Source: Prinia subflava (lineage: Eukaryota > Chordata > Aves > Passeriformes > Cisticolidae). Taken from it: a stretch of DNA of 64,000 nucleotides. Each line of letters starts with the position of its first letter. The first letter of the stretch is position 1. The notes beneath the pieces were generated by a model. That model had not been told where the DNA came from. It made no database searches and saw nothing but the letters and a program-made list of their open reading frames with translations. Shown one piece after another: positions 1 through 39,434 of this stretch. Location: positions 62,001-126,000 of the forward strand of contig NW_026961085.1 in assembly GCF_021018805.1 (NCBI RefSeq). The letters are read 5' to 3'. The translations under genes were made by a program, and so were the position numbers.

Positions 1-2033
1 ACATTTATCACAAGCTTGAAACTTCTATAGTAGAGGCACCTAATTCCTTCCTATCTCTGCTTTCAGAATATGCTCAGCTAGAACAACTGTTGGCTGTATT
101 CCCAGTAGCTTATTCCTGACACAACAGGAGGGCCAAGGTGCTGCATTATTTCTGCAGTCAGTTTGTCATGGCTGCTGGGAATTTTGGCAGGGATGTGGTG
201 TGGCTTAGAGTCTCAGTGCTCCCCATGCTTGGAGGCGGCATTTGAATTCTGCCCCCAAAATCAAAATGGGAAGTTGTTGATTGTGGTGGTAGAGATGGCC
301 ATGACGCTCAGAGTGCTTCGGTAAAATTTCAGAAGGTTTCAAGCATCAGCTCCTTGTTATCTAAAAGTCTTTCATACCTTTTCTATGTAGTCTCCCATGG
401 GTAGCTCTACACAGCTCTGGCTCTTTCTCTCCCTCTCTCTTCCTTCTGCAGTTCCAACTTGCTCCTTCCTGTCCCCAGCACAGCCACCTAACCTTGTGTC
501 CCTTGTACAATGTCTTGCCCTTTCTGTCTCTTGCGCGACCTCCCCTTCCTCCTCAGAGCACAGCCAGCAGACTCAACTGACTCCAACCAGCTAACTCTTT
601 TATCACACCCATAGCTGTGAGGGCAAGGCTGTTCCCACTCTTGAGTAATTAACACAGCTGCAATATATCAGAGGCAAAATTGCCTTTAGCACTCTCTGTC
701 TCCCCACAGTTGATCTGCAATATTTCTTCCTAGAGTGTTTTCCCTATAAACTTAATTTACTTAGAAGCTGCACCTGTCAGAAGTTTGTCCAATGGGTGTC
801 CCTTCCCTGAAGCCTGGAATCTCTAGTGCCTTCCTGTATCCCCTCTCTGCAGGAAATAACAGATACAAAGTGAAAGGAGTTCATTACAGGCTCTTACACT
901 ATTCATTATTATCTTGGGGAAAACATTCAGAATATATGAGTAAAGCCTTGCAAATGATGAGGAATCCTGAAAAATGAGAAGGAGCACAACATCCTGCCTT
1001 TCTAAGGGGAACCTGGGCTGCTGAGAATTTATGTCGTGGTGTAAGAGCTGTTAAAAGGAATGAGAGTAGAAGCCTCTTCCCTTCACTGGAAGTTGCTCCC
1101 AGGATTACAGGTTCTGGCAGGAAGTTGGCTGAAGAACAGTGGTAATGCTTCTGGTAGATTTTGGTGTACAAATGCTTGTTCATCACAACCAGGACCTGGC
1201 TCATGAACAACTGTCTGTGTCTTCAAACAGCTTTGCTACAGCAGCAAGGGCTCCTTTCACACCTATGAACAGCAAGCTGAACTGAGCAGCCCCAGCAGAG
1301 CTGCAAAGCCCCTCTGTCCTTCCCCAGTCACTCTTGTATCACCCACCTTTCTACTGAAATTGAGCTTTGTGTGCACGCTGCTCAGGTCGGCTTCCCTCAG
1401 CTCACGGCAGGAAATGGATACTTCAAACAATCTGCATGAGTTTCACAGAGGAGTTTTGGAAACTCCTCCCTTTATAAAGAAAGAAGTCTTGGTTTTGTTT
1501 TAAAAGAATAGCTTCTCTCAGGCTCATTTTGGAAGTGACTGGGTTTCTCTCGGTGGATAGAATTTAAACACTGAGAAGCAGTGAAAATTTTAGATGGTCT
1601 GTTTGCCAGAATGTATGGAAAGATTTCAGATATATCAAGACTAGAAGTATTGGGCTCAAAGAAGTAAAGGGGTGACAACCTTTATCAAAAGGTTCTCTAA
1701 ATTCAGTGTCTGATGTGCTGAGGGCTGAGCAGCAGGCCTGAGCCAGAGCTGACTTACAAGATGAATTCTGGGCACTGTGTCACTAACCCCATCAGTATTT
1801 AGCGAGAAATAGACAACAAAGACGCTTGTGCTGGCTCTGTATAACCTTGTGCAGTTATCTGCAGGAAATATATCACTTTAAGAAACTTTCCCAACTGACA
1901 GGAATAGAAGCTTATCTGTAAGGTATTTTAGGGGAAAACTCTCTGTGCCCAGGCCTGGGCTCTGGCCAAGGCCGGCCGTGGCTGGTCAGGAAGTGTGCCG
2001 TCAGATCCAGGAGTTGGTGTGCTAAAAATAGGA
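1..2033. other. Left arm outer part, no recognised gene
   Basis: Mirrored at 37402-39434. I see no domain-bearing frame here. Open frames are short, and the largest encode low-complexity or anonymous peptides. Confidence 0.6.
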
Positions 2034-2150
2034 TCAAGTCACTTTGTTCTTGTGTGTGTTGCAGCATGGACACATCAGGCGGGCTTGCAACACACACACA
2101 CACACACAGAGCTGTGAGGGGCCCTGCAGCCCAGCTGCTGTGCTTTAGCA
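2034..2150 (-). pseudogene. RNF20: Decayed RNF20 RING-exon fragment (left arm)
   Basis: On the minus strand an intron tail with a (GT)n run leads into an exon-like stretch (2034-2084) encoding ARLMCPCCN, then a TGA stop after 16 codons. The true RNF20 last exon (40252-40428) starts ARLTCPCCN and is preceded by an intron tail that also matches at DNA level (the segment around CACAGCAGCTGGGCTG). Because intron sequence is shared, this is a copy at the DNA level and not a retrocopy. The rest of the RING is not recognisable. The neighbouring exons are absent, so it is a fragment. Confidence 0.65.
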
Positions 2151-2377
2151 TGGCAGTCATTCATTCCCTAAACACAAGGGCAGTGGACTTTAATTGCAAA
2201 GCCTCTCTTTGCAATGGGATTGCTTTTGCCCTGCAGCCTCCATGAGCACGGGCTTTGTGGGAACAGGGACCATCACAGCCTGTGTCCTGGAAACAGACCC
2301 AGGAAAATGAGCAGATCCTGCTGGCTTTTGCTACTGCTGTAGCAGTGATCCTACCAGCAACTCCTATGGCAAGTTAT

Positions 2378-2975
2378 TACAATGTAGAAAATTAAAGGGG
2401 CTTTCAGGCAGAGGTGTGGGGATAGGAATAACAGTTCTTTACTAGTATATATGACAAAACAAACAACAACTACTACAGCATTAACAATAAACAGAATCAA
2501 GAATCCCGAGGGGCTTTGGTTTCACAAAGCCCGGGGCAGTCTGATCTCTTGGGACTCTGAGAGCACCAAGCTGGAGCGATGGGAAATCCCGGGCTGGTGG
2601 ATGAGATGTATCAGAAGCTCTGTCTGTGGTAGCTGGAGCAGCAGGGATGTCCTGGCAGGGCAGGGCAGTGCAGGGCTACGGAGTGGCAGAAAACCTCAAA
2701 GCAGTGCAGAAGAAATGCCGGCGGTGGGACAGGGCCACCCTAGCAGGGCAGGAGGAGGCGAGCTCAGGGTTCCGGCGCACAGGAGGAGATGGTGGTCGAT
2801 TTTCCAAGACTGGACGAAGTGGTAACAGCAAACTCCTGCAGCAAGCAGCAGCCTGGCCATTCTCTTTCCCATGCCCAGAGCAAGAGAGCGAAGCTGTCCC
2901 CAGCCCTGTCCTTTACCTCCCCCAAAACCCGTGATACCTCTCCCCTCTGAGGGAAACTGCCAGAAACTCAAAAAC
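2378..2975 (-). mobile_element. Probable LTR (left arm)
   Basis: In minus orientation the tail of this block reads like an avian retroviral R/U5 region: a TATA-like stretch, an AGTAAAGAACTG motif, then pyrimidine-rich sequence ending near TTTTCTACA. No internal retroviral genes are attached. I could not find a target-site duplication, so both borders are approximate. Mirrored at 36460-37057. Confidence 0.5.
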
Positions 2976-3659
2976 AATAGGTGTAGCCGATGCTGCTATC
3001 TCCTTTGACCACTTCTTTGTTTTAGTCGAGTATCCTGTAGTTAGTCTCCTAGCAACTTATGGGAAAAAAATCTGTAAGTGAAAAAGAAGCAAATCTAACC
3101 TCCAACACCAGTTCTCCTGGATCTTGGAGAATTTCAGCCCTTGTGTCCATAGCCCGCCCTTCAGCCCCAGCCTGCAGCAGTTACAGTCACTGTTGCCTCC
3201 TCCTTGCTCCAGCTCACTTGCCAAGGTGCCGCCAAAGCCGGCTCAGGAGGCTGACTCAGGATCCCTATTGGCTTCTGGTCTCCAGGATGACCTTCAGAGG
3301 GACACTTGGAGCACTTCCTAAAGAGCTGCCTGTGGCATAGGGGGTAGATTTGTCCGCCCTAGGTGGCTCATGGTTGGGGTTCTACGCTCAGTGGAGTCCC
3401 AGAGTTTCTTCAGCAGCCTTTGCAGTGAGTTCTTAGTGAACATGTGGCTTTGCTGCCATCCCAAATCTCTGCTTGCCTTGCCCAAACTAAGTCCAAGTAG
3501 GGCATGTGCTGGGCATGGCTGGAGATTTTTTCATGGCCAGAAGCCTCCAGCATCACCTTTACATCTGCTCATTGTTTTGGGTAGCACAAATCACAAAACA
3601 CTCATCTCAGCTGACAAATGTAATTTCTTGCAGATTGCTACAGCTGCATTTCTGATTGA
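2976..3659. other. No recognised gene
   Basis: A GC-moderate stretch between the probable LTR and the AT-rich tract. The open frames (for example 3059-3340 and 3370-3681 on +) show no family resemblance. Confidence 0.5.
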
Positions 3660-4612
3660 CAAATACACAAGATTCAGTTGAAAAATGTCATTTTATTACA
3701 AATTGCTACACCCATGCTGACAATACAGAACTGTACAAATCTCAATTAAGGTTAAAAAAGGAATTTATTAGATTATTACAACAATGCTATGTAAAATTTA
3801 CAAATACTTCAGTTAACAAAACTAAATATATTGCCAACCTCTGCAACAACTCAATGTACACAAAGATCAATTAGGTGCTTAACAACTTCATTTATTACAT
3901 ATGACTGCAAGTGTACAGCCCATATAGAAATACAAAAATATACATTCCCTCTGTAAATAACCATGTACCAACAACTCAGTCGATATAATTATAAAATTAT
4001 ACCACTCCATACATGTTGAATTAGAATTAAATACCTATATATACACAAATACATAAATACATAGATAACTATTACAATCTACACATGTCAATACTGATTA
4101 CATATTACGTTACATGCTACATTATATACACATACATATAAAACAAACCTATGTATAAATATAAAAATATCACTATGCCAAGGCCAAGCTAAGTATCTAT
4201 CCAATTGCATCAATACACATATAAAGGTATATATCTGGATACATATGTAAATATAATTGCTTATAGAAATAGGTCAATATACATATACAAATATAAAAAT
4301 AGACATATATACCTATAGAAATACCAATATACCTATTTAAAGAGCCATGTACCTATAACTGCATCAACAGAAATAGATACCTACACAACTCTATACATAG
4401 GAAATAGAACTAAAACCATCTAACAACATACATGTATACTTAGATACATATATACACATATATGTAATTACATATATGTATATACACAGCATACATCCAT
4501 AAATATAACAACAGTCATATTCGCCATATTTGCTATACAAATACCAATACACGTATATAAATATCCATATAATTATCCCTCTCTATGAGCAAGTCCATAT
4601 GTCTTTAAACAG
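3660..4612. repeat. AT-rich tract, about 1 kb (left arm)
   Basis: A long run of imperfect TATA/ATAA-type short motifs with very low GC, ending abruptly where a GC-moderate module begins. Shorter tracts of the same character occur at 5780-6060, 15397-15582 and 17343-17450, each next to an HSF5-locus-related module. Confidence 0.75.
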
Positions 4613-4755
4613 AACTATAAACGGAGGGATTCCAGCTGCCCCATCTTCCAAGCCTCTCCGTTGTTTCCTTCTGTGCAGAGCAGCTCTCCTGGACAGGGAC
4701 AGCAGGTGGGACATTTAGGAAGCAAAGGGAACACTGAGTCAGTATCAGGACGTTT
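4605..4755 (-). pseudogene. HSF5-locus-related exon-like module (copy 1, left arm)
   Basis: One of three diverged copies of a short module (others at about 6045-6230 and 17440-17610). On the minus strand each has a CTCAGTGTTCCCTTTGCTTC-type acceptor region, followed by an open frame ending in a GQ(V/L)E(S/Y)L(C/R)L-like tail next to an AT-rich tract. It resembles the end of intron 1 and start of exon 2 of the intact gene. The function is unknown and it is probably decayed. Confidence 0.4.
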
Positions 4756-4809
4756 CACTTGTTAGCACCTGCACTTCCATCACGGAAGGAAAAATCTCAG
4801 AGCCTCCCC

Positions 4810-5083
4810 AGAAGCATTAAAAAGGAGAAGCAGGCAGAGCGGGACAGGGTGTGGTGAGCGCAGCTGCAGCGGGACTGTCTCGCAGCCGCCGGCAGCCCAG
4901 CACAGCCGGCACAGCTCCCGGGCCCTGCCGGCACAGCTGCCTTGCCCAAGGACAGCCCCTGTGCCGGCCGGGGCAGCTGTGCCGAGCAGCCCCAGCACAG
5001 GCACGGCCCGCTCCCGCCCAGCCGGGCGGCACTGCCCACGGCCAAAGCCCATGCCGCCCTCACCCCCATCCTGCCTCACCGGC
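4810..5083 (-). pseudogene. Decayed HSF5-like exon 1/intron 1 junction copy (left arm)
   Basis: GC-rich block that aligns well with 9580-9820, the start of intron 1 of the intact HSF5-like gene, including the GCCG|GTGAG donor context and a long shared stretch around CCGGCCGGCACAGGGGCTGT (minus strand). The DNA-binding-domain exon that should lie upstream is not present. It is therefore a partial, rearranged copy of the HSF5-like locus. Confidence 0.6.
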
Positions 5084-5521
5084 CCTGTGGCCTCACCCGG
5101 GGTCTCGAGTGGCAGCAGCACATCCCTGTTCACTGCTCTTGCTGGTGGCCTTCAGCTTCTCTCTCTGCTGGCTCCCATCAGTCTGCGGCTGTTTTCAAGG
5201 TCTTCAGTGCAGCTGTGGCAAAAGTGGAGCCTCTGGAATTGATTCCAAGGCCTGGCAGAGCTGCAGTCCGGGACTCTTCTGTGCTGCCTGCTGGCCCCCT
5301 CCATCCCCTCAGCCCTACCGTCCCCTCGCCAAGCCCTCAGCCCCCTTCACTTTCTTCAGCCCCTCACAGTCCTCTCACCCCACTCAGTCCGTTCTGACCC
5401 ATCCCATCCGCTTAGACCCACCACTCCCCTCAGCCTGTGACACTTCCCTGCCACCTCAGTGCCACAATCGCCCTCTGCTCCCCCCCACCCCTCAGTCCCC
5501 CAGCACCTCAAGGTCACCAAC

Positions 5522-5767
5522 CCTTCAGTGTCACCGCCTCCTCAGCCCCCTCAGTCTCACCGTCCTTCAGCAGCTCCTCAGGGGACGGTGCCTGGGGCCA
5601 CCAGCAGCTCCCACCGCTCCAGGGACACCAGGCTCTGGAACTGCTGCTCCACCCGGCCCGGCCACCAGCTCGGACCCAGCACAGGAAGAGGAGAAAGAGG
5701 GGGGACAAACAGAAAAGCAAAAGGTGAAAAAGGCAGCTGAGGGGGAAAGAAGTAAAAATGCAGCCTA
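5522..5767 (-). repeat. 246-bp segment, copy A
   Basis: GC-rich segment identical by eye over 246 bp to 15151-15396 in the spacer and mirrored at 33668-33913. One minus-strand frame reads ...RVEQQFQSLVSLERW... to a stop, but I do not recognise it. It lies just upstream (minus sense) of the decayed HSF5-like junction copy. Confidence 0.85.
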
Positions 5768-5779
5768 AGTCTACACAGC

Positions 5780-6060
5780 TCTATGTAGCTAAACTTCCAT
5801 ATACTTCTAACTAAATAACTATGCACATTTATAAATTTAAATATAACTATATATATTAGTGTTGTTACTCTATACATACATGTAAATCTGAAAATCTATA
5901 AATGTAATTACATAAATATAAATATAATTTTATCATATCTATAACTATATATATGTTAATTGTATAGATGCATAAATATATGCACATATAACTCTACAAA
6001 TCTAAAAACATAACTATATGGGTATAGAAATAAAACTATAGCAATCTCTAAATGTATCTA
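5780..6060. repeat. AT-rich tract (left arm)
   Basis: Low-GC TATA/ATAA-type sequence between the 246-bp segment and the second HSF5-related module. Mirrored at 33375-33655. Confidence 0.7.
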
Positions 6061-6230
6061 TAAACAGAGAGATTCCACCTGCCCGGCGGTCACAGGCTCT
6101 CCCTCTGGTCCTTCTTCGCACGCAGGGCAGCCCTCCTGGCAAGGTAGATCAGATGAATATCTGGGAAGCAAAGGGAACGCTGAGTCAATATTGCCCTTTG
6201 TACATCCTTCCCTTTGGAAGTAAGTGTACT
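6045..6230 (-). pseudogene. HSF5-locus-related exon-like module (copy 2, left arm)
   Basis: The closest relative of the spacer module at 17440-17610. On the minus strand a pyrimidine-rich acceptor is followed by a frame reading CQEGCPACEEG... to GQVESLCL and a stop. It lies about 0.8 kb downstream of the intact gene's terminal exon, so it could be an unused downstream exon or a piece of a second gene unit. Confidence 0.4.
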
Positions 6231-7006
6231 GCTATCAACGACTGTAAAAGATGGCCTGAAAGGCAGACTCTCACTAGTGAATTTCAGACCTGCTCTTGAA
6301 ACAGCAGGAATCCTTCCTAGTTTTCAAAACTTCCGAAATTTTGAAGTATCCCAGCAAACTCACAACACTTCCATTTCAAATGGCACCCATGACAGCTTGA
6401 AACAGAGACAGTCCCAGCTCCCATAAAGAAGCCAAATCTTGTTCCTTCTCTGTGCTGACAGTTCTCATTGAAATGGCTAAAGCTGAAAGGTGCTGTGAGC
6501 TGAGTTATGAACCAGGACCGTTTCCTGCCATCTACAAACTGCCCTCTGCAGTGAGCAACAGCTCCTCCAGCAACACCACTAGCTCTGGGATGATAAGCAG
6601 GGAGGGAAAGAGCTCCCTACGAGGCTGACAGACTGCACCAGCTTTGCTCAAGAATGCAGATCCAAAGGGCTCTTCTCTCCTATTAGTTCTTGTGAATTTG
6701 CGGTAACTTTTTTCCTTGGGCTACTGGATTTGTGACTAATGATTTGTTTGGCCTCAGAGCTTCCGCTACTTGTATTTTTAATGTATCTCACTATAGCTGT
6801 CAGCAGACTGCTACTACATTGATATAATTCTTGGAGAAAAAAAGCTCAGACTTCTACATTGACTTTTTGCTGTGGTATTCCTCTCCCGCTTCAAGAGTCA
6901 TTCAGTGTTCCCTCCAGAATACTGTCAACCTGCAGCAAAATTATCCACGGACTTCAGCACAAAACTGGGACATGTGGGTTGGTGACACAACTCCCACAAG
7001 CTCATG

Positions 7007-7012
7007 TTTATT
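7007..7012 (-). promoter_or_regulatory. Poly(A) signal of left HSF5-like gene
   Basis: AATAAA on the minus strand, about 35 bases beyond the TGA of the HSF5-like terminal exon. This spacing supports that exon as the true 3' end. Confidence 0.65.
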
Positions 7013-7045
7013 CCCTGCTCTCTTGCCACAGCAGAGGACTCGGTG

Positions 7046-10000
7046 TCAGAGCCTCTGGAGAAGCATGGAGGGCAGGGCTTGGGGAGATGGTGCCAGTGCA
7101 GGATTTGAACTAAATGCATCAGGAAGCACCAACCCTACAGACAAGAACTCAACTCTTTTGATCTCCCTTCCTGTCACAGGCAGGCTCAGAGCAGCTGTCT
7201 CACACCTCTCTAAACCAATGTGGGCTCTCTCCTCACCAAGCTCCTTGGGCTCCTGGGACCTGTGCCCACAGCTCCTGGTCCCAGATGAAGCTCCCTCTGC
7301 TGCAGCCCTGTCCATACTGTCCTCTCCTGAAGACTCGGGGGCAACGCTAATATTGTCCTGAAAAGAAAAACAGGAAGAAAGAAACTGAAAGATCACTGGC
7401 TATTTTCTGTAGGGACACAGTAGTTCAGAGCCTGCAACATCTCCTTCTCTTAAGGAAGAAAATGCTTTTAAAAACTTGTAGAAGACAAAAGGTCATCATT
7501 CTTTGCAATAAGATATGGGATTCTTCCCAAGAAAATGAGCACCCAAACTTGACCAACACAGGCTCACACCTTTTCATCCTTACTCAGGCGGAAACTTTTT
7601 CATTCCCTCTTTCAGAAATCTTGCTTTACAAAGCAAACCCTTCCCTGTCCAGTCACAGCTGAGTTGAAGAATGCTTTGCTTCTCAGCTATGCAATGACAT
7701 TCAAAAGCTCTCAGTACAGCCCCTTTTATCCCTGTCCAATGGACTTACCTGAGCAGAGGGACACCTTTCAGGCAGGGATGGTGAAACCATCTTCTCCAGT
7801 GTCTCAAGCACAAGGTCCAGATCCAGTGGTGGCAATTCCTCTTCACCAGGAGTACTCCATACCCAGCTGGGGGCTGTCCATGCTGCATAACCACCACTGC
7901 AAGCTGGAGCACTGGGGGCTAAAGTGCCCAATGCAGCTGCAAGAATCCAAACACATTGGTCAGGCTCCAGAATGTGGCTTTGGGACGCAGAGCTCTGTTG
8001 CTGCCTTGGATCAAACATCACAGGAAGCACACAGCAACCTCAATTCCAGAAATGTATTCAAGCTTCCCAGGGAACTGGAAGAGTGAGTTCTTTCTCTTAA
8101 AAATATTTATCCTTATTGATGTGTACATAGATTAAAGTATGGATTGTAAAACTTATATAGACACACACATACATGAACACTTTATAATCACAGCCTTTTG
8201 CATCTCCCCAGCCGCTTTTGGATTTGGCTGCTTGCGTTTCTCATCACAAGAGACCACAGAAAGGGGATTCATACAGGAAGAGCCCAGATCTTTAGACACA
8301 CATGCTGAAATTAAATTGGCAGTTTGTTCTAAAAACAACCTTGTGGGTGAGGCCGTAATTGTGCAGCTGCAGTGGCTCTGGGGCACACAGAGCTCATTTC
8401 AGTGGCACTGCTTGATTTGCAGGATAGACAGTCTTAAACATCTGCAATATCCTATCACTGTCCTAGTTTGGCTTCATTCAAAGAAAGAAGGCAGTTCACC
8501 TAACACTGACCACTTGTCAGGCACTATTTTTCACCTTTCCCTTGCACCTCAGCAGAGAGGATGTCTGGAAAACGTCCAGAACACTATCAAATCTGCAGGA
8601 AAGACACGAAAAGCAGACTGAGAATCTTGCTGGTTTTAAGGTCCCTCTTCCTAATACACTTGACACTCTCTACCTGATTCTCACTTGAGATTTACCCATG
8701 ACACAGCACTGTGGGAAAACACTTCAAAGGGTCAGTTTCCTGGACCTGTTTGAAAAGCAAGGGTGGAAACTCTTTCCCTACCCGATGGGTCATTGGCTGT
8801 TGAGCGCTGCTCTGAGCATCTGCAACTGCTGCTCTCTGGAGAAGCCACGGAAGTGCTGTGATGGTCTATGGGAACAATGAGCTCAGGGTGGCACTTGAGG
8901 TCCATGCGAACCAGTGGAATGATAAGCTCATGCTTGAGCTGAAATTTGCATGTGCCAGTTTCCTCTGATGAAACCCCAGGAAGTCCGGATGTGGCTAACA
9001 CTATCTTGGGAGATGCTACGAAAGCCTCAGACTCCTGAGGACCTGGACTTTGCCTGAAAGGGCCTGCAGGCAGCTCTGAATCCTCAGATGAGGCAGCAGC
9101 AAGGTCCTGGTAGGAGAGTGCTGTGTAGCAGTGAGGGAAGAAGGAAGGAAGCAAAGGGAAGGCTAGGTCACTATTTGCCTTCGGGTATGTTTTCCTTGCC
9201 AGCAACTGTATTTCTGTTATGGAAGACAAAAGCTCCCATCCTCCCAAGCAGAGTGAGAAAGAAGGAAAAAAAGCAAACAAACAACCAAACCCAACATGTT
9301 CTGGGGCCATTCAACAAGAATTTCCTTGTCTACTTAGCTCTCCCCTATTTGTTCAACTGACTGGGAAAACTGTCCCACTGCCATTCCTTGGCAGGAGGCA
9401 ACTGCCAGAAACCAAACTACCACGTCTGTTCCCCTCTGCTCCAAACGGGACAGGAGGCTCCCCCCCACTGGGCCTGACCACAACTGAGCCCTCGGCTCAC
9501 ACGCACTCACAGAGAGTTCCCCAAGCATCCTAGGGCCGGGCAAGGAGCAGCGCCAGCCACGGCGCAGGGCTGGGCCAGCTGCAGGCCGAGCGGACCAGGG
9601 TGTGGTAAGCACGGCTGCGGTGGGACTGTCCCACAGCCGGCACAGCTCCCGGGCCCTGCCGGCACAGCTGCCTTGCCCACGGACAGCCCCTGTGCCGGCC
9701 GGGGCAGCTGCGCTGAGCAGCCCCAGCATGGGCAGAGCTCGCTCCTGCCCAGCCAGGCACTCCCCCCGCCGAAGCCAACGCCACCCTCTGTGCCCGCAGC
9801 TCCCACCCCGTCTCACCGGCTCTGGGCAGCTGCCCAGCGGGGAAGGCGGGCAGCGGCCGGTCCGTGTGGAGCTGCTGGAAGCGGCTGGGCTGGCGGCTGC
9901 GCACCTCCAGCCCCGCCGCCAGCCGCAGCCTATTAGCCCTGGTCAGGCGCTTGATGCGGAGGAGGAGGTCGGGGCGGTCACGGCGAAAGTTGGGATTCCT

Positions 10001-10330
10001 GAAGTGGAGCCAGCCCCCGGCATCGCCCGGCACAGCTGCGCCAACCCAGCCCGGCACCTTTTGGAAGCCGTAGAGGTTCAGCTGGCGCACGAAACTGCCG
10101 AAGTGCGTGGCTTGGAAAGAGTCCGGGGCCGCCCCCACCCCCTTGCTGCCCCCGCCATGGGCATTGGCCGGGCTGAGCAGCTCCCGCTCGAAGAGGGAAC
10201 GGTCGATGAGTAGCCCCCGGGCCTGGCTGTCCCAGCGCACGGAGCGGACGCAGGGGTTGTTCACCAGGCGCCACAGCTTGGCGGGGAAGGTGCTGGCGTT
10301 GAGCCCGGCAGGCAGCGGCACCTCCGCCAT
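7046..10330 (-). CDS. HSF5-like heat shock transcription factor, left copy
   Basis: Four coding exons on the minus strand: 9817-10330, 8782-9120, 7749-7936 and 7046-7357. They join in phase (1, 1, 0) with GT/AG borders to give 450 codons plus stop. Exon 1 carries an HSF DNA-binding domain (about residues 14-130): FPAKLWRLVNNP at 15-26, recognition-helix FVRQLNLYGF at 80-89, and the FRNPNFRRD wing at 110-118, followed by KRLTRAN and LAAGLEV. A Gly-rich insert sits between helix 2 and the recognition helix. This pattern is that of HSF5, not HSF1-4. No HR-A/B coiled coil is visible, also like HSF5. The start was chosen at MAEVPLP (10328-10330) because of a strong CACCATGG context; the frame is open further upstream. 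HSF5 is a testis-expressed factor needed for male meiosis. Function here is inferred from the family. Confidence 0.88.
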
Positions 10331-12632: not shown

Positions 12633-12646
12633 GGCATTTGTGTGTA

Positions 12647-26902: not shown

Positions 26903-29104
26903 TTAATTCACTCTTAGCTGAACCAAGGGATTATTAACAAGAACCTCGGTGACTCTTGCCTTCGTGGATGTGGGTTCTAACAGTGATCAACTGCCAAATT
27001 GCCACCTTAGCTCTGCAGAGAAGATGTTGCTTTGCATCAGCCACATGTCGCCCAGGACACCTGTCCCACAATAGACTGGAGGAAGCTGTGATGAAGAAGG
27101 ATCTGAGCAAAAGCCCTCTCCAGTTGACAGCTACTCCCCCCTACCTTGAATTTGTAGGTATTTTGTACTTGGATTAGGCACATGTCTAAGGCATTCAAGA
27201 AACAACCTGTCTAGTTTTTGTTAGTATGTGTCACTGAGGGATGAGGAAGGAACCCCAAAGGCTCAAGACACAGGCTGTCAGGAGGAGGCACAGCAGCTGC
27301 TTTACCATATCAGAAATTCCCCATTTTTGTCCCATGTTTGTGAAGCTGACATATGCCTGCCCCTTGGGCTATACTACAGTGTCTCCCCCATCTCCTCTGA
27401 GGATTTCTGGCAGAAAGAAGGATGCATCCAGACAGATTCTTGTCTTTTGATCCTTGTCTGCTTGGCCTGCAGGGACACTTGGCTCTTCCAAACACAGGTC
27501 AAGAACACAAAAGCATGTCCATCCACATGACTTCTTGGAATACAAGAACACATAAAGCAAAACTCACCCAAGCCCTTCCTTAGTTGTCTTCTTGATGTTG
27601 AGATTTCTGGTATCCCAACTCCAAGGCTGTGACAACACTCCACCCCATCTCATATCAGTGGATTAAAGACACTGTGTTTAAAGACAAACCCTATCCCACC
27701 CAGGTGGATCATTCATAATTCAGGTTCTATTTTAAACAATTTAAGATGAATTGGGAAGAGATTTTCTAGGTATTAGGTTCCAATTTTTCTCAGAAAGCCA
27801 GCACACAGACGAAGAGACGACAGGGCATTTTTAAAACAGTCCAAAAGACTACTCCAGAATGTGATGAGACCAACAATCCTTGTGTCAGCATGCCACCCAC
27901 AGGACAGCAACAGAAAGTGACAGAGCTAGGCTGCTCACAAAGGGACCTGGAAGGAGGGCAAGAGCAGGCAATATCACCTGGAACTCAGGCTGGAAGTAAG
28001 GAGAACATCCACTGTGTGTGGGATGAGCTTCTGCCATACCACCAAATACACTCACATGAGCCCTCATGGTTAAATGATATAAAGACATAAAAAGGGCATT
28101 GATTAAAAGAGATGGAAGAAATAGGTCTATTTTTTCATGCTATGAAAACTGTTTCCAGTTGAAGAGAGAATTTAAAATAAAAAGAGCAAGTGACAAAAGC
28201 ACAGATGACTGCAAGATCATCTTTGTTGCTTTATTGAAAATACCTGGCTGCAGGAGAGATTTTGTGTTGTAACTGTCCCCTGACTGGGGAAAAAAAAAGA
28301 GGGGAAGAAATTATTCCTGCGGAAAGAAAAATGCGAAACCTCTTGGCGAAGACACCAGCATGAGTTCACTGTAACTGTAGGTGATTAATCCCTCACAAAA
28401 AGCAACATCCTTCCAGGGGACAGGATTTTAGCTTTGATGAAAATGCTGACAAAATTGCTGCCCCTTCCTCTTGCTGCTTCTACCTCCAAAGAATGAGAAA
28501 TGTGCCAAATCTGCTGAACACAGTGAGAAAGCACTAGCCAGCTGGCTGGAAAAGGGGCAAACAGAACGTCTTCAATTCTCTTATTTCACAATTTCCCCTT
28601 CTCCCATTTGACCAGTCTGCTTTCAAGTGGGGAACTCTGTTTCCAGCCCCAACCAAAATAGTACAGCTACTCAGTCTAAGATCTTTTTCCTCCCTTCAGC
28701 TATGCAGAACACAAAGTGATTTTGCTTTAACTGGACAAATAGAAAGAATTTCCCGTGGGACTGCTCAATTTGGACCCCCTTTCGAAAGGTCCTGCACTTG
28801 CCTTAGTTGTTTGGGGTTGTGCTGCAAAGCAAAGGCAGAAGGATGACTGCAGCTAGAGAAAATAAAAGGATTTGCACCTTGCCATACCCTGCCCTGCCCG
28901 GCCAGTCCCGGGAGCCGCCATGCCCGCGCTGTGCCCACAGCCCCAGCTCCGCGGCGCTCGTCTCCACCACCAAGTCCGGCCTGTGCTGGGGCCACGCTGG
29001 GCACGCGCGGGGCCAAATGCAGCGCCCCCCTCAGGCTGTGTGCCACCGGTGCAGCCGTGGCCGTTACGCTTCGGGCGTTGTGGCGACAGTCGGTGATCAG
29101 CACC
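26903..29104. other. Upstream flank of right HSF5-like gene
   Basis: Mirror of 10331-12532. The last 200-300 bases before the start codon are CpG-rich and are the likely promoter. No other gene is recognised. Confidence 0.5.
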
Positions 29105-32100
29105 ATGGCGGAGGTGCCGCTGCCTGCCGGGCTCAACGCCAGCACCTTCCCCGCCAAGCTGTGGCGCCTGGTGAACAACCCCTGCGTCCGCTCCGTGCGC
29201 TGGGACAGCCAGGCCCGGGGGCTACTCATCGACCGTTCCCTCTTCGAGCGGGAGCTGCTCAGCCCGGCCAATGCCCATGGCGGGGGCAGCAAGGGGGTGG
29301 GGGCGGCCCCGGACTCTTTCCAAGCCACGCACTTCGGCAGTTTCGTGCGCCAGCTGAACCTCTACGGCTTCCAAAAGGTGCCGGGCTGGGTTGGCGCAGC
29401 TGTGCCGGGCGATGCCGGGGGCTGGCTCCACTTCAGGAATCCCAACTTTCGCCGTGACCGCCCCGACCTCCTCCTCCGCATCAAGCGCCTGACCAGGGCT
29501 AATAGGCTGCGGCTGGCGGCGGGGCTGGAGGTGCGCAGCCGCCAGCCCAGCCGCTTCCAGCAGCTCCACACGGACCGGCCGCTGCCCGCCTTCCCCGCTG
29601 GGCAGCTGCCCAGAGCCGGTGAGACGGGGTGGGAGCTGCGGGCACAGAGGGTGGCGTTGGCTTCGGCGGGGGGAGTGCCTGGCTGGGCAGGAGCGAGCTC
29701 TGCCCATGCTGGGGCTGCTCAGCGCAGCTGCCCCGGCCGGCACAGGGGCTGTCCGTGGGCAAGGCAGCTGTGCCGGCAGGGCCCGGGAGCTGTGCCGGCT
29801 GTGGGACAGTCCCACCGCAGCCGTGCTTACCACACCCTGGTCCGCTCGGCCTGCAGCTGGCCCAGCCCTGCGCCGTGGCTGGCGCTGCTCCTTGCCCGGC
29901 CCTAGGATGCTTGGGGAACTCTCTGTGAGTGCGTGTGAGCCGAGGGCTCAGTTGTGGTCAGGCCCAGTGGGGGGGAGCCTCCTGTCCCGTTTGGAGCAGA
30001 GGGGAACAGACGTGGTAGTTTGGTTTCTGGCAGTTGCCTCCTGCCAAGGAATGGCAGTGGGACAGTTTTCCCAGTCAGTTGAACAAATAGGGGAGAGCTA
30101 AGTAGACAAGGAAATTCTTGTTGAATGGCCCCAGAACATGTTGGGTTTGGTTGTTTGTTTGCTTTTTTTCCTTCTTTCTCACTCTGCTTGGGAGGATGGG
30201 AGCTTTTGTCTTCCATAACAGAAATACAGTTGCTGGCAAGGAAAACATACCCGAAGGCAAATAGTGACCTAGCCTTCCCTTTGCTTCCTTCCTTCTTCCC
30301 TCACTGCTACACAGCACTCTCCTACCAGGACCTTGCTGCTGCCTCATCTGAGGATTCAGAGCTGCCTGCAGGCCCTTTCAGGCAAAGTCCAGGTCCTCAG
30401 GAGTCTGAGGCTTTCGTAGCATCTCCCAAGATAGTGTTAGCCACATCCGGACTTCCTGGGGTTTCATCAGAGGAAACTGGCACATGCAAATTTCAGCTCA
30501 AGCATGAGCTTATCATTCCACTGGTTCGCATGGACCTCAAGTGCCACCCTGAGCTCATTGTTCCCATAGACCATCACAGCACTTCCGTGGCTTCTCCAGA
30601 GAGCAGCAGTTGCAGATGCTCAGAGCAGCGCTCAACAGCCAATGACCCATCGGGTAGGGAAAGAGTTTCCACCCTTGCTTTTCAAACAGGTCCAGGAAAC
30701 TGACCCTTTGAAGTGTTTTCCCACAGTGCTGTGTCATGGGTAAATCTCAAGTGAGAATCAGGTAGAGAGTGTCAAGTGTATTAGGAAGAGGGACCTTAAA
30801 ACCAGCAAGATTCTCAGTCTGCTTTTCGTGTCTTTCCTGCAGATTTGATAGTGTTCTGGACGTTTTCCAGACATCCTCTCTGCTGAGGTGCAAGGGAAAG
30901 GTGAAAAATAGTGCCTGACAAGTGGTCAGTGTTAGGTGAACTGCCTTCTTTCTTTGAATGAAGCCAAACTAGGACAGTGATAGGATATTGCAGATGTTTA
31001 AGACTGTCTATCCTGCAAATCAAGCAGTGCCACTGAAATGAGCTCTGTGTGCCCCAGAGCCACTGCAGCTGCACAATTACGGCCTCACCCACAAGGTTGT
31101 TTTTAGAACAAACTGCCAATTTAATTTCAGCATGTGTGTCTAAAGATCTGGGCTCTTCCTGTATGAATCCCCTTTCTGTGGTCTCTTGTGATGAGAAACG
31201 CAAGCAGCCAAATCCAAAAGCGGCTGGGGAGATGCAAAAGGCTGTGATTATAAAGTGTTCATGTATGTGTGTGTCTATATAAGTTTTACAATCCATACTT
31301 TAATCTATGTACACATCAATAAGGATAAATATTTTTAAGAGAAAGAACTCACTCTTCCAGTTCCCTGGGAAGCTTGAATACATTTCTGGAATTGAGGTTG
31401 CTGTGTGCTTCCTGTGATGTTTGATCCAAGGCAGCAACAGAGCTCTGCGTCCCAAAGCCACATTCTGGAGCCTGACCAATGTGTTTGGATTCTTGCAGCT
31501 GCATTGGGCACTTTAGCCCCCAGTGCTCCAGCTTGCAGTGGTGGTTATGCAGCATGGACAGCCCCCAGCTGGGTATGGAGTACTCCTGGTGAAGAGGAAT
31601 TGCCACCACTGGATCTGGACCTTGTGCTTGAGACACTGGAGAAGATGGTTTCACCATCCCTGCCTGAAAGGTGTCCCTCTGCTCAGGTAAGTCCATTGGA
31701 CAGGGATAAAAGGGGCTGTACTGAGAGCTTTTGAATGTCATTGCATAGCTGAGAAGCAAAGCATTCTTCAACTCAGCTGTGACTGGACAGGGAAGGGTTT
31801 GCTTTGTAAAGCAAGATTTCTGAAAGAGGGAATGAAAAAGTTTCCGCCTGAGTAAGGATGAAAAGGTGTGAGCCTGTGTTGGTCAAGTTTGGGTGCTCAT
31901 TTTCTTGGGAAGAATCCCATATCTTATTGCAAAGAATGATGACCTTTTGTCTTCTACAAGTTTTTAAAAGCATTTTCTTCCTTAAGAGAAGGAGATGTTG
32001 CAGGCTCTGAACTACTGTGTCCCTACAGAAAATAGCCAGTGATCTTTCAGTTTCTTTCTTCCTGTTTTTCTTTTCAGGACAATATTAGCGTTGCCCCCGA

Positions 32101-32389
32101 GTCTTCAGGAGAGGACAGTATGGACAGGGCTGCAGCAGAGGGAGCTTCATCTGGGACCAGGAGCTGTGGGCACAGGTCCCAGGAGCCCAAGGAGCTTGGT
32201 GAGGAGAGAGCCCACATTGGTTTAGAGAGGTGTGAGACAGCTGCTCTGAGCCTGCCTGTGACAGGAAGGGAGATCAAAAGAGTTGAGTTCTTGTCTGTAG
32301 GGTTGGTGCTTCCTGATGCATTTAGTTCAAATCCTGCACTGGCACCATCTCCCCAAGCCCTGCCCTCCATGCTTCTCCAGAGGCTCTGA
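29105..32389 (+). CDS. HSF5-like heat shock transcription factor, right copy
   Basis: Exons 29105-29618, 30315-30653, 31499-31686 and 32078-32389. Junction phases are 1, 1 and 0, total 1353 nt, 450 residues. Donors are GTGAGA, GTAGGG and GTAAGT; acceptors are CTACACAG, TTCTTGCAG and TTTTCAG. Exon 1 holds the whole DNA-binding domain. Exons 2-4 (residues 172-450) are Ser/Pro/Glu-rich with no recognised domain; an acidic-hydrophobic stretch LDLDLVLETLE in exon 3 could be an activation segment. The encoded frames are identical to the left copy. The exon 3 acceptor is the least certain: the frame is also open upstream as far as 31397. Whether one or both copies are expressed is unknown. Confidence 0.88.
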
Positions 32390-32422
32390 CACCGAGTCCT
32401 CTGCTGTGGCAAGAGAGCAGGG

Positions 32423-32428
32423 AATAAA
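32423..32428 (+). promoter_or_regulatory. Poly(A) signal of right HSF5-like gene
   Basis: AATAAA 34 bases after the stop codon. The mirror copy at 7007-7012 serves the left gene. Confidence 0.65.
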
Positions 32429-33204
32429 CATGAGCTTGTGGGAGTTGTGTCACCAACCCACATGTCCCAGTTTTGTGCTGAAGTCCGTGGATAATTTTGC
32501 TGCAGGTTGACAGTATTCTGGAGGGAACACTGAATGACTCTTGAAGCGGGAGAGGAATACCACAGCAAAAAGTCAATGTAGAAGTCTGAGCTTTTTTTCT
32601 CCAAGAATTATATCAATGTAGTAGCAGTCTGCTGACAGCTATAGTGAGATACATTAAAAATACAAGTAGCGGAAGCTCTGAGGCCAAACAAATCATTAGT
32701 CACAAATCCAGTAGCCCAAGGAAAAAAGTTACCGCAAATTCACAAGAACTAATAGGAGAGAAGAGCCCTTTGGATCTGCATTCTTGAGCAAAGCTGGTGC
32801 AGTCTGTCAGCCTCGTAGGGAGCTCTTTCCCTCCCTGCTTATCATCCCAGAGCTAGTGGTGTTGCTGGAGGAGCTGTTGCTCACTGCAGAGGGCAGTTTG
32901 TAGATGGCAGGAAACGGTCCTGGTTCATAACTCAGCTCACAGCACCTTTCAGCTTTAGCCATTTCAATGAGAACTGTCAGCACAGAGAAGGAACAAGATT
33001 TGGCTTCTTTATGGGAGCTGGGACTGTCTCTGTTTCAAGCTGTCATGGGTGCCATTTGAAATGGAAGTGTTGTGAGTTTGCTGGGATACTTCAAAATTTC
33101 GGAAGTTTTGAAAACTAGGAAGGATTCCTGCTGTTTCAAGAGCAGGTCTGAAATTCACTAGTGAGAGTCTGCCTTTCAGGCCATCTTTTACAGTCGTTGA
33201 TAGC

Positions 33205-33390
33205 AGTACACTTACTTCCAAAGGGAAGGATGTACAAAGGGCAATATTGACTCAGCGTTCCCTTTGCTTCCCAGATATTCATCTGATCTACCTTGCCAGG
33301 AGGGCTGCCCTGCGTGCGAAGAAGGACCAGAGGGAGAGCCTGTGACCGCCGGGCAGGTGGAATCTCTCTGTTTATAGATACATTTAGAGA
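33205..33390 (+). pseudogene. HSF5-locus-related exon-like module (copy 2, right arm)
   Basis: Mirror of 6045-6230. The acceptor-like TTCCCTTTGCTTCCCAG precedes a frame ending GQVESLCL and TAG at the edge of an AT-rich tract. Confidence 0.4.
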
Positions 33391-33655
33391 TTGCTATAGT
33401 TTTATTTCTATACCCATATAGTTATGTTTTTAGATTTGTAGAGTTATATGTGCATATATTTATGCATCTATACAATTAACATATATATAGTTATAGATAT
33501 GATAAAATTATATTTATATTTATGTAATTACATTTATAGATTTTCAGATTTACATGTATGTATAGAGTAACAACACTAATATATATAGTTATATTTAAAT
33601 TTATAAATGTGCATAGTTATTTAGTTAGAAGTATATGGAAGTTTAGCTACATAGA
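33375..33655. repeat. AT-rich tract (right arm)
   Basis: Mirror of 5780-6060. Confidence 0.7.
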
Positions 33656-33667
33656 GCTGTGTAGACT

Positions 33668-33913
33668 TAGGCTGCATTTTTACTTCTTTCCCCCTCAGCT
33701 GCCTTTTTCACCTTTTGCTTTTCTGTTTGTCCCCCCTCTTTCTCCTCTTCCTGTGCTGGGTCCGAGCTGGTGGCCGGGCCGGGTGGAGCAGCAGTTCCAG
33801 AGCCTGGTGTCCCTGGAGCGGTGGGAGCTGCTGGTGGCCCCAGGCACCGTCCCCTGAGGAGCTGCTGAAGGACGGTGAGACTGAGGGGGCTGAGGAGGCG
33901 GTGACACTGAAGG
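33668..33913 (+). repeat. 246-bp segment, copy C
   Basis: Right-arm counterpart of 5522-5767; identical in the opposite orientation to the spacer copy at 15151-15396. Confidence 0.85.
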
Positions 33914-34351
33914 GTTGGTGACCTTGAGGTGCTGGGGGACTGAGGGGTGGGGGGGAGCAGAGGGCGATTGTGGCACTGAGGTGGCAGGGAAGTGTCACAG
34001 GCTGAGGGGAGTGGTGGGTCTAAGCGGATGGGATGGGTCAGAACGGACTGAGTGGGGTGAGAGGACTGTGAGGGGCTGAAGAAAGTGAAGGGGGCTGAGG
34101 GCTTGGCGAGGGGACGGTAGGGCTGAGGGGATGGAGGGGGCCAGCAGGCAGCACAGAAGAGTCCCGGACTGCAGCTCTGCCAGGCCTTGGAATCAATTCC
34201 AGAGGCTCCACTTTTGCCACAGCTGCACTGAAGACCTTGAAAACAGCCGCAGACTGATGGGAGCCAGCAGAGAGAGAAGCTGAAGGCCACCAGCAAGAGC
34301 AGTGAACAGGGATGTGCTGCTGCCACTCGAGACCCCGGGTGAGGCCACAGG

Positions 34352-34625
34352 GCCGGTGAGGCAGGATGGGGGTGAGGGCGGCATGGGCTTTGGCCGTGGG
34401 CAGTGCCGCCCGGCTGGGCGGGAGCGGGCCGTGCCTGTGCTGGGGCTGCTCGGCACAGCTGCCCCGGCCGGCACAGGGGCTGTCCTTGGGCAAGGCAGCT
34501 GTGCCGGCAGGGCCCGGGAGCTGTGCCGGCTGTGCTGGGCTGCCGGCGGCTGCGAGACAGTCCCGCTGCAGCTGCGCTCACCACACCCTGTCCCGCTCTG
34601 CCTGCTTCTCCTTTTTAATGCTTCT
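34352..34625 (+). pseudogene. Decayed HSF5-like exon 1/intron 1 junction copy (right arm)
   Basis: Aligns with 29612-29870 of the intact gene, including the GCCG|GTGAG context and the CpG-rich start of intron 1. The DNA-binding-domain exon is missing upstream. Confidence 0.6.
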
Positions 34626-34679
34626 GGGGAGGCTCTGAGATTTTTCCTTCCGTGATGGAAGTGCAGGTGCTAACAAGTG

Positions 34680-34830
34680 AAACGTCCTGATACTGACTCA
34701 GTGTTCCCTTTGCTTCCTAAATGTCCCACCTGCTGTCCCTGTCCAGGAGAGCTGCTCTGCACAGAAGGAAACAACGGAGAGGCTTGGAAGATGGGGCAGC
34801 TGGAATCCCTCCGTTTATAGTTCTGTTTAA
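34680..34830 (+). pseudogene. HSF5-locus-related exon-like module (copy 1, right arm)
   Basis: Mirror of 4605-4755. CTCAGTGTTCCCTTTGCTTC precedes a frame ending GQLESLRL and a stop, then an AT-rich tract. Confidence 0.4.
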
Positions 34831-35775
34831 AGACATATGGACTTGCTCATAGAGAGGGATAATTATATGGATATTTATATACGTGTATTGGTATTTGTAT
34901 AGCAAATATGGCGAATATGACTGTTGTTATATTTATGGATGTATGCTGTGTATATACATATATGTAATTACATATATGTGTATATATGTATCTAAGTATA
35001 CATGTATGTTGTTAGATGGTTTTAGTTCTATTTCCTATGTATAGAGTTGTGTAGGTATCTATTTCTGTTGATGCAGTTATAGGTACATGGCTCTTTAAAT
35101 AGGTATATTGGTATTTCTATAGGTATATATGTCTATTTTTATATTTGTATATGTATATTGACCTATTTCTATAAGCAATTATATTTACATATGTATCCAG
35201 ATATATACCTTTATATGTGTATTGATGCAATTGGATAGATACTTAGCTTGGCCTTGGCATAGTGATATTTTTATATTTATACATAGGTTTGTTTTATATG
35301 TATGTGTATATAATGTAGCATGTAACGTAATATGTAATCAGTATTGACATGTGTAGATTGTAATAGTTATCTATGTATTTATGTATTTGTGTATATATAG
35401 GTATTTAATTCTAATTCAACATGTATGGAGTGGTATAATTTTATAATTATATCGACTGAGTTGTTGGTACATGGTTATTTACAGAGGGAATGTATATTTT
35501 TGTATTTCTATATGGGCTGTACACTTGCAGTCATATGTAATAAATGAAGTTGTTAAGCACCTAATTGATCTTTGTGTACATTGAGTTGTTGCAGAGGTTG
35601 GCAATATATTTAGTTTTGTTAACTGAAGTATTTGTAAATTTTACATAGCATTGTTGTAATAATCTAATAAATTCCTTTTTTAACCTTAATTGAGATTTGT
35701 ACAGTTCTGTATTGTCAGCATGGGTGTAGCAATTTGTAATAAAATGACATTTTTCAACTGAATCTTGTGTATTTG
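34823..35775. repeat. AT-rich tract, about 1 kb (right arm)
   Basis: Mirror of 3660-4612. Very low GC, made of varied TATA/GTAT motifs and not a perfect tandem array. Confidence 0.75.
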
Positions 35776-36459
35776 TCAATCAGAAATGCAGCTGTAGCAA
35801 TCTGCAAGAAATTACATTTGTCAGCTGAGATGAGTGTTTTGTGATTTGTGCTACCCAAAACAATGAGCAGATGTAAAGGTGATGCTGGAGGCTTCTGGCC
35901 ATGAAAAAATCTCCAGCCATGCCCAGCACATGCCCTACTTGGACTTAGTTTGGGCAAGGCAAGCAGAGATTTGGGATGGCAGCAAAGCCACATGTTCACT
36001 AAGAACTCACTGCAAAGGCTGCTGAAGAAACTCTGGGACTCCACTGAGCGTAGAACCCCAACCATGAGCCACCTAGGGCGGACAAATCTACCCCCTATGC
36101 CACAGGCAGCTCTTTAGGAAGTGCTCCAAGTGTCCCTCTGAAGGTCATCCTGGAGACCAGAAGCCAATAGGGATCCTGAGTCAGCCTCCTGAGCCGGCTT
36201 TGGCGGCACCTTGGCAAGTGAGCTGGAGCAAGGAGGAGGCAACAGTGACTGTAACTGCTGCAGGCTGGGGCTGAAGGGCGGGCTATGGACACAAGGGCTG
36301 AAATTCTCCAAGATCCAGGAGAACTGGTGTTGGAGGTTAGATTTGCTTCTTTTTCACTTACAGATTTTTTTCCCATAAGTTGCTAGGAGACTAACTACAG
36401 GATACTCGACTAAAACAAAGAAGTGGTCAAAGGAGATAGCAGCATCGGCTACACCTATT
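35776..36459. other. No recognised gene
   Basis: Mirror of 2976-3659; only anonymous short frames. Confidence 0.5.
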
Positions 36460-37057
36460 GTTTTTGAGTTTCTGGCAGTTTCCCTCAGAGGGGAGAGGTA
36501 TCACGGGTTTTGGGGGAGGTAAAGGACAGGGCTGGGGACAGCTTCGCTCTCTTGCTCTGGGCATGGGAAAGAGAATGGCCAGGCTGCTGCTTGCTGCAGG
36601 AGTTTGCTGTTACCACTTCGTCCAGTCTTGGAAAATCGACCACCATCTCCTCCTGTGCGCCGGAACCCTGAGCTCGCCTCCTCCTGCCCTGCTAGGGTGG
36701 CCCTGTCCCACCGCCGGCATTTCTTCTGCACTGCTTTGAGGTTTTCTGCCACTCCGTAGCCCTGCACTGCCCTGCCCTGCCAGGACATCCCTGCTGCTCC
36801 AGCTACCACAGACAGAGCTTCTGATACATCTCATCCACCAGCCCGGGATTTCCCATCGCTCCAGCTTGGTGCTCTCAGAGTCCCAAGAGATCAGACTGCC
36901 CCGGGCTTTGTGAAACCAAAGCCCCTCGGGATTCTTGATTCTGTTTATTGTTAATGCTGTAGTAGTTGTTGTTTGTTTTGTCATATATACTAGTAAAGAA
37001 CTGTTATTCCTATCCCCACACCTCTGCCTGAAAGCCCCTTTAATTTTCTACATTGTA
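36460..37057 (+). mobile_element. Probable LTR (right arm)
   Basis: Mirror of 2378-2975. The AGTAAAGAACTGTTATTCC region at about 36992 is the most LTR-like part. Borders are approximate. Confidence 0.5.
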
Positions 37058-37284
37058 ATAACTTGCCATAGGAGTTGCTGGTAGGATCACTGCTACAGCA
37101 GTAGCAAAAGCCAGCAGGATCTGCTCATTTTCCTGGGTCTGTTTCCAGGACACAGGCTGTGATGGTCCCTGTTCCCACAAAGCCCGTGCTCATGGAGGCT
37201 GCAGGGCAAAAGCAATCCCATTGCAAAGAGAGGCTTTGCAATTAAAGTCCACTGCCCTTGTGTTTAGGGAATGAATGACTGCCA

Positions 37285-37401
37285 TGCTAAAGCACAGCAG
37301 CTGGGCTGCAGGGCCCCTCACAGCTCTGTGTGTGTGTGTGTGTGTTGCAAGCCCGCCTGATGTGTCCATGCTGCAACACACACAAGAACAAAGTGACTTG
37401 A
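37285..37401 (+). pseudogene. RNF20: Decayed RNF20 RING-exon fragment (right arm)
   Basis: Intron tail 37285-37350 and exon remnant 37351-37401 encoding ARLMCPCCNTHKNKVT and a TGA. It faces the genuine RNF20 last exon, which lies 3 kb away on the opposite strand. The first CPCC cysteine cluster survives; the rest of the RING is lost. Confidence 0.65.
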
Positions 37402-39434
37402 TCCTATTTTTAGCACACCAACTCCTGGATCTGACGGCACACTTCCTGACCAGCCACGGCCGGCCTTGGCCAGAGCCCAGGCCTGGGCACAGAGAGTTTT
37501 CCCCTAAAATACCTTACAGATAAGCTTCTATTCCTGTCAGTTGGGAAAGTTTCTTAAAGTGATATATTTCCTGCAGATAACTGCACAAGGTTATACAGAG
37601 CCAGCACAAGCGTCTTTGTTGTCTATTTCTCGCTAAATACTGATGGGGTTAGTGACACAGTGCCCAGAATTCATCTTGTAAGTCAGCTCTGGCTCAGGCC
37701 TGCTGCTCAGCCCTCAGCACATCAGACACTGAATTTAGAGAACCTTTTGATAAAGGTTGTCACCCCTTTACTTCTTTGAGCCCAATACTTCTAGTCTTGA
37801 TATATCTGAAATCTTTCCATACATTCTGGCAAACAGACCATCTAAAATTTTCACTGCTTCTCAGTGTTTAAATTCTATCCACCGAGAGAAACCCAGTCAC
37901 TTCCAAAATGAGCCTGAGAGAAGCTATTCTTTTAAAACAAAACCAAGACTTCTTTCTTTATAAAGGGAGGAGTTTCCAAAACTCCTCTGTGAAACTCATG
38001 CAGATTGTTTGAAGTATCCATTTCCTGCCGTGAGCTGAGGGAAGCCGACCTGAGCAGCGTGCACACAAAGCTCAATTTCAGTAGAAAGGTGGGTGATACA
38101 AGAGTGACTGGGGAAGGACAGAGGGGCTTTGCAGCTCTGCTGGGGCTGCTCAGTTCAGCTTGCTGTTCATAGGTGTGAAAGGAGCCCTTGCTGCTGTAGC
38201 AAAGCTGTTTGAAGACACAGACAGTTGTTCATGAGCCAGGTCCTGGTTGTGATGAACAAGCATTTGTACACCAAAATCTACCAGAAGCATTACCACTGTT
38301 CTTCAGCCAACTTCCTGCCAGAACCTGTAATCCTGGGAGCAACTTCCAGTGAAGGGAAGAGGCTTCTACTCTCATTCCTTTTAACAGCTCTTACACCACG
38401 ACATAAATTCTCAGCAGCCCAGGTTCCCCTTAGAAAGGCAGGATGTTGTGCTCCTTCTCATTTTTCAGGATTCCTCATCATTTGCAAGGCTTTACTCATA
38501 TATTCTGAATGTTTTCCCCAAGATAATAATGAATAGTGTAAGAGCCTGTAATGAACTCCTTTCACTTTGTATCTGTTATTTCCTGCAGAGAGGGGATACA
38601 GGAAGGCACTAGAGATTCCAGGCTTCAGGGAAGGGACACCCATTGGACAAACTTCTGACAGGTGCAGCTTCTAAGTAAATTAAGTTTATAGGGAAAACAC
38701 TCTAGGAAGAAATATTGCAGATCAACTGTGGGGAGACAGAGAGTGCTAAAGGCAATTTTGCCTCTGATATATTGCAGCTGTGTTAATTACTCAAGAGTGG
38801 GAACAGCCTTGCCCTCACAGCTATGGGTGTGATAAAAGAGTTAGCTGGTTGGAGTCAGTTGAGTCTGCTGGCTGTGCTCTGAGGAGGAAGGGGAGGTCGT
38901 GCAAGAGACAGAAAGGGCAAGACATTGTACAAGGGACACAAGGTTAGGTGGCTGTGCTGGGGACAGGAAGGAGCAAGTTGGAACTGCAGAAGGAAGAGAG
39001 AGGGAGAGAAAGAGCCAGAGCTGTGTAGAGCTACCCATGGGAGACTACATAGAAAAGGTATGAAAGACTTTTAGATAACAAGGAGCTGATGCTTGAAACC
39101 TTCTGAAATTTTACCGAAGCACTCTGAGCGTCATGGCCATCTCTACCACCACAATCAACAACTTCCCATTTTGATTTTGGGGGCAGAATTCAAATGCCGC
39201 CTCCAAGCATGGGGAGCACTGAGACTCTAAGCCACACCACATCCCTGCCAAAATTCCCAGCAGCCATGACAAACTGACTGCAGAAATAATGCAGCACCTT
39301 GGCCCTCCTGTTGTGTCAGGAATAAGCTACTGGGAATACAGCCAACAGTTGTTCTAGCTGAGCATATTCTGAAAGCAGAGATAGGAAGGAATTAGGTGCC
39401 TCTACTATAGAAGTTTCAAGCTTGTGATAAATGT
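37402..39434. other. Right arm outer part, no recognised gene
   Basis: Mirror of 1-2033. One substitution against the left arm at 38900. Confidence 0.6.

Follow-up and report, generated by a model that had tools for sequence, protein, structure and literature searches.

A likely Z-linked palindrome in Prinia subflava whose RNF20- and HSF5-like-bearing arms are probably kept alike by gene conversion

How do two inverted copies of the same 42 kilobases (kb), carrying intact genes, come to differ at hardly any base? The question is raised by a palindrome on contig NW_026961085.1 of the passerine bird Prinia subflava (assembly GCF_021018805.1), each arm of which holds a complete copy of RNF20 and of a gene resembling HSF5. 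The sequence under analysis, referred to as the window, is a stretch of 64,000 nucleotides, C516:62001-126000, where C516 denotes the contig. The palindrome is probably an old inverted duplication on the Z chromosome, with 42-kb arms kept alike by arm-to-arm gene conversion.

Comparison of 165,000 bases of C516 with itself reveals a palindrome with a total length of 93,852 base pairs (bp), or ∼94 kb, made up of three parts:

C516:34786-77149, left arm, 42,364 bp, of which the inner part is window 1..15149
Window 15150..24292, spacer between the arms, 9,143 bp
C516:86293-128637, right arm, 42,345 bp, corresponding to window 24293..64000 and continuing to the equivalent of window position 66637

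Window 1-15149 is the reverse complement of window 24293-39434, as a preliminary description of this DNA had recognized, and the self-comparison and arm alignment that it had proposed confirmed the inverted repeat and extended it to the whole contig. The palindrome is real, but the window cuts through it. The '15-kb arms beside RNF20' of that description are due to where the window was cut: the arm length was set by the window edge at base 1, the arms measure ∼42 kb on the whole contig, and RNF20 sits inside the right arm with a second full copy in the left. Alignment of the whole arms over 42,345 bp yields ten substitutions (99.98% identity; 99.894% by BLAST with gaps counted) and four insertions or deletions of 15, 8, 4, and 8 bp, all in short repeats. 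None of the ten substitutions falls in the 24 modelled coding exons (4,179 bp). Within the window, the previously noted (TA)n length change (8 bp) and 15-bp tandem-unit change were both recovered, and the two substitutions counted there proved to be four (left positions 535, 11226, 12600, and 15143). A chance origin of the inverted repeat is excluded because of its length and identity.

The two genes are distributed over the arms as follows:

Window 40252..54326, minus strand, RNF20 (BRE1A) of the right arm, 981 amino acids, 19 coding exons with canonical splice sites
C516:47109-61180, plus strand, RNF20 of the left arm, complete, outside the window
Window 57757..57813, minus strand, initial coding segment of RNF20 isoform X1 (P0121), the longer form
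Window 6090..10330, minus strand, left-arm HSF5-like gene encoding 410 amino acids, with exons 10330-9817, 9120-8782, 7936-7749, 7357-7237, and 6160-6090
Window 29105..33345, plus strand, right-arm HSF5-like gene, with the same coding sequence as its left-arm counterpart

The 981-residue RNF20 model aligns over its full length with the Prinia subflava BRE1A isoform X1, the single differing residue being a gap. In the species' own 1.12-Gb assembly, a 2,751-bp stretch of RNF20 has 11 matches, two of them full length (one per arm) and nine short at 65-77% identity. The five-exon model of the HSF5-like gene encodes 410 residues, and leaving out exon 2 gives the exact sequence of the Prinia subflava protein P0001. 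Conversion-type sex-chromosome palindromes are recognized as inverted repeats with arm identity above 99% and with intact genes in both arms; both features are present here, RNF20 and the HSF5-like gene being complete in each arm.

Near-identity of this kind can reflect either recent origin or gene conversion, and the preliminary description was right to offer these two options. A diverged block outside the arms favors conversion without proving it. An inverted copy of the left flank C516:29320-30788 lies directly outside the right arm, at 128638-130443; it adjoins the arm at the very next base and is collinear with the left flank. On the left, 3,997 bp lie between block and arm; they are missing on the right. 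The two blocks differ at 141 of 1,367 aligned bases (10.3%; 61/614 and 80/753 in two aligned blocks) and are thus ∼437 times more diverged than the arms (0.024%). Matches to the outer block occur in at least three places in the assembly, namely C516 left, C516 right, and a 103-Mb sequence termed C53; this count is a lower bound from 40 of 296 scored candidates and sets apart a high-copy stretch of ∼400 bp. Across the two aligned blocks, the distances are 0.099 and 0.106 for left against right, 0.069 and 0.108 for left against C53, and 0.106 and 0.105 for right against C53. Left and right are about as distant from one another as either is from C53, an indication that the duplication is old. Private changes in block 1 number 42 on the right, 17 on the left, and 21 on C53; in block 2 the three counts are close to one another (30, 32, and 29). 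Past C516:130443, inverted similarity to the left flank was not found again; one direct match of 80 bp looks unrelated.

A short tract in the spacer is likely to be a gene-conversion tract and is a second sign of conversion at the locus:

Window 15151..15396, 246 bp identical to arm 5522-5767, adjoining the arm-spacer junction, with a sharp drop in identity beyond

The simplest account of these features assumes a single, old inverted duplication that a length difference later interrupted, and conversion acting inside. The duplication would once have extended at least to C516:29320. A deletion on the right side, or an insertion on the left, would then have set a limit that conversion does not cross, and inside this limit conversion would have kept rewriting one arm from the other, so that the arms stayed alike. 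The outer block favors such conversion on an older palindrome but is not proof of it.

The alternative that fares best is possible, though unlikely: a recent inverted duplication of 42 kb with arms too young to have diverged, the outer block being a remnant of an earlier, separate event that duplicated the PGAP4-RNF20 intergenic region in inverted orientation. The presence of only ten substitutions in 42 kb, the lack of any large arm-specific insertion, and the single copy of the inner arm end in the stretch of C53 that was read are all in keeping with recent origin. However, the diverged block begins immediately where the right arm ends and keeps the order of the left flank, and two independent inverted duplications meeting at that point are less simple; the spacer, moreover, has its own sharp tract identical to arm sequence. 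As for how the palindrome formed, C53 connects the inner arm end directly with the right spacer edge (C516:86245-86292), so that of the two inner junctions the right one appears to be ancestral and the left to be derived, unless the spacer was flipped.

Another possibility, which we regard as improbable, is that two haplotypes, or one locus, were joined in inverted orientation by the assembler. The contig is unplaced, the arm differences are few, and the joins are those of the assembly, all of which would suit an artefact. On the other hand, a spacer of 9.1 kb, inner junctions that are unlike each other, outer flanks that are likewise unlike, and a diverged inverted block that abuts the end of one arm are not expected from a hairpin read or a false haplotype join.

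The old, converted palindrome that we prefer is likely Z-linked rather than W-linked, a placement argued from gene order, published hybridization data, and copy number in the assembly. The left flank of the palindrome contains MRPL50 and ALDOB, both identified from peptides, and an intact PGAP4 (protein search), after which comes the left-arm RNF20. This order is presumably the usual vertebrate one. A 2,001-bp stretch of ALDOB has three matches in the assembly, a single full-length one on C516 and two short ones at 74-81% identity. A germline-restricted chromosome was considered and set aside, as the only full-length RNF20 and ALDOB matches of the assembly sit on C516. A functional locus of this kind would be needed in both sexes, which also argues for the Z. 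In chicken, RNF20 is a Z-linked gene; in ostrich, fluorescence in situ hybridization placed it on the Z and gave no signal on the W (PMC4133349). The Z of Cisticolidae includes parts of chromosomes 4A and 4, as stated in a paper on Sylvioidea sex chromosomes.

The homologous locus on C53 complicates this placement. Three of the five DM-domain matches of the assembly fall within 100 kb of one another at 100 Mb on C53. We take this trio to be the pattern of the DMRT1-3-2 cluster, and C53 was therefore taken as Z. The stretch C53:32513149-32571531 is a collinear but decayed version of the C516 locus, in which the MRPL50 region is preserved at 96% and the inner arm end is present. ALDOB and the HSF5-like gene were not found at the C53 locus, and RNF20 was found only as a weak match of 27%. 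The C53 copy of PGAP4 has a stop at codon 4; the nonsynonymous (dN) and synonymous (dS) divergence of PGAP4 are 0.0188 and 0.0225, and comparison with nine other birds assigns 12 changes to the C53 lineage and 3 to the C516 lineage, with 3 unclear. The locus looks like a W-type gametolog in a scaffold of mixed Z and W sequence, or an old duplicate on the Z. That C516 should instead be the W-linked sequence, with a palindrome like those of sparrows, blackbirds, and duck, is the least probable reading: the avian palindrome reports consulted do place them on the W, and C53 with its DMRT-like cluster does carry a homologous locus, but males would then lack RNF20 and ALDOB, for which the assembly yielded no further full-length match, the decay of PGAP4 lies on the C53 side, and the ostrich W gave no RNF20 signal.

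The identity of the second arm gene rests on comparisons of domain, structure, and phylogeny. Its HSF-type DNA-binding domain matches Pfam PF00447 (E 3.9e-17), its best PDB match is the HSF5 chain 8zys (E 1.5e-39), and among the best 120 of 324 matches its best relatives are HSF5-like and uncharacterized songbird proteins. A tree of 48 rows, the window gene plus 47 of these best 120 of 324 proteins, was built with a quick method and midpoint root. In this tree, the 36 passerine rows fall into a single supported cluster, separate from the remaining 12, which are mostly HSF5 of other birds, reptiles, and a mammal. The domain is thus closest to HSF5 by Pfam, PDB, and tree, and an identity as HSFY is rejected on the same grounds. 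The passerine rows split into two groups, and the window gene groups with rows from Hirundo, Chamaea, and Ficedula. Among the matches listed, two Hirundo rustica HSF-domain proteins (P0049 and P0054) are entered with integrase-type domains. In Prinia, RNF20 and an HSF5-like protein are assigned to contigs of the same size (170,652 bases), and so they are in Ficedula (348,679 bases). HSF5 is testis-specific with a role in male meiosis in mammals and fish (PMC11059408), and by analogy the Prinia protein may act in male meiosis or testis.

The gene has left older traces at the locus, which also holds a remnant of RNF20:

Window 15151..18963, minus strand, spacer remnant of an older HSF5-like copy (decayed 3′ part), with piecewise homology to arm 5522-7354
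Window 4203..5061, fragments in the arm resembling the exon 1/intron 1 region and the exon 5 region of the HSF5-like gene, 69-79% identical
Window 2047..2144, minus strand, decayed partial copy of the RNF20 last exon in the left arm, with its mirror at 37291-37388

Since the spacer has the 3′ remains of an older copy and the arm has other fragments, the HSF5-like gene had likely been duplicated at the locus on an earlier occasion. Across the assembly, HSF domains give 23 matches in total, with 12 on C27, 2 on C516, 3 on C53, and 6 on five other contigs. The C27 matches, at 0.70-3.12 Mb and including four with equal scores, represent a separate amplified group of HSF genes.

Several observations weigh against a Z-linked palindrome maintained by conversion. 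The contig is unplaced and its Z linkage is drawn solely from synteny, as the junctions are drawn solely from the assembly. The C53 homologue lies on the same scaffold as a DMRT-like cluster, and Z and W sequence are not cleanly separated in this assembly. If the outer block came from a separate inverted duplication of greater age, the arms could simply be young. GC content (arm 45.8%, spacer 48.3%, flanks 44.2% and 40.3%) gives no clear GC-bias trace of conversion. Lastly, in Cinclus the HSF5-like protein that shares a contig with RNF20 belongs to the other of the two groups in the tree, so that linkage of the window's gene is unsupported in that genus.

The spacer also contains a tandem array:

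Window 19201..20308, 256-bp tandem repeat, 4.4 copies

No tRNA was detected in the window by a scan that used the bacterial code, no Rfam family matched the window or ten C516 stretches at gathering thresholds, and the CR1-type terminal repeat pattern was not found in the window. In the right flank, an FN3K-like open frame (C516:151278-151655) has matches at C53:29.03 Mb (78%) and on C12 (76%). Endogenous retroviral sequence is present at C516:134-141 kb and on C53 near 32.58 Mb.

A second copy of RNF20 may raise or protect the dose of an H2B ubiquitin ligase. Extending this notion, an old Z palindrome could preserve the genome's only RNF20 as a converted pair and, with the paired HSF5-like meiotic regulator, serve as a device giving two copies per Z, by which ZW females would keep two RNF20 after loss of the W copy; we consider this extension doubtful.

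Literature searches returned no paper on HSF5 with the bird Z chromosome, on a W-chromosome gametolog of RNF20, or on a Prinia subflava genome assembly. Among the palindrome and amplicon papers listed, no title or opening of an abstract on a Z palindrome with RNF20 or HSF5-like genes was found, which is not proof of absence. Word searches did not find HSF or RNF20 in PMC7692361, PMC7599627, PMC4468903, PMC7787181, or PMC4377847, nor Prinia, RNF20, or palindrome in two papers on Sylvioidea sex chromosomes. Palindromes on sex chromosomes are usually explained as a rescue for chromosomes that do not recombine. A gene-bearing Z palindrome with a diverged outer margin would, if true, indicate that homogenization of this sort also operates on a chromosome with access to ordinary recombination, and can maintain a widely required chromatin gene as well as germline genes. 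The jump in divergence from 0.024% to 10.3% at a 4-kb length difference would offer a natural test of what halts gene conversion.

The human Y chromosome carries ampliconic palindromes, one of which contains HSFY. The preliminary description had compared the palindrome with those of the Y and W that carry germline genes, and in form the comparison is apt, with an HSF5-like gene in the arm, while the evidence on placement points to the Z and not the W. As in mammalian Y palindromes, a large inverted repeat has near-identical arms with an HSF-family gene in each and conversion as the likely cause; in contrast to them, the Prinia palindrome is likely on the Z, which recombines in males, its gene is HSF5-like rather than HSFY, and its arms also contain RNF20. 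Davis et al. reportedly described in 2010 a songbird W palindrome with signs of arm-to-arm conversion; relative to that one, the Prinia palindrome is apparently longer, has other genes, and is likely on the other sex chromosome. On the zebra finch Z, ampliconic arrays contain PAK3L, with HSF5-like genes in cluster 3 (PMC13060935). Both species thus have HSF5-like genes duplicated on a songbird Z, although the zebra finch has arrays of many units with PAK3L, a gene not searched for here, and Prinia has a two-arm palindrome with RNF20. The duck W likewise harbors avian sex-chromosome palindromes, of 15.2-345.5 kb, described as nested repeats without genes of robust expression (PMC7787181); the arms in Prinia differ from these in that each holds two intact genes.

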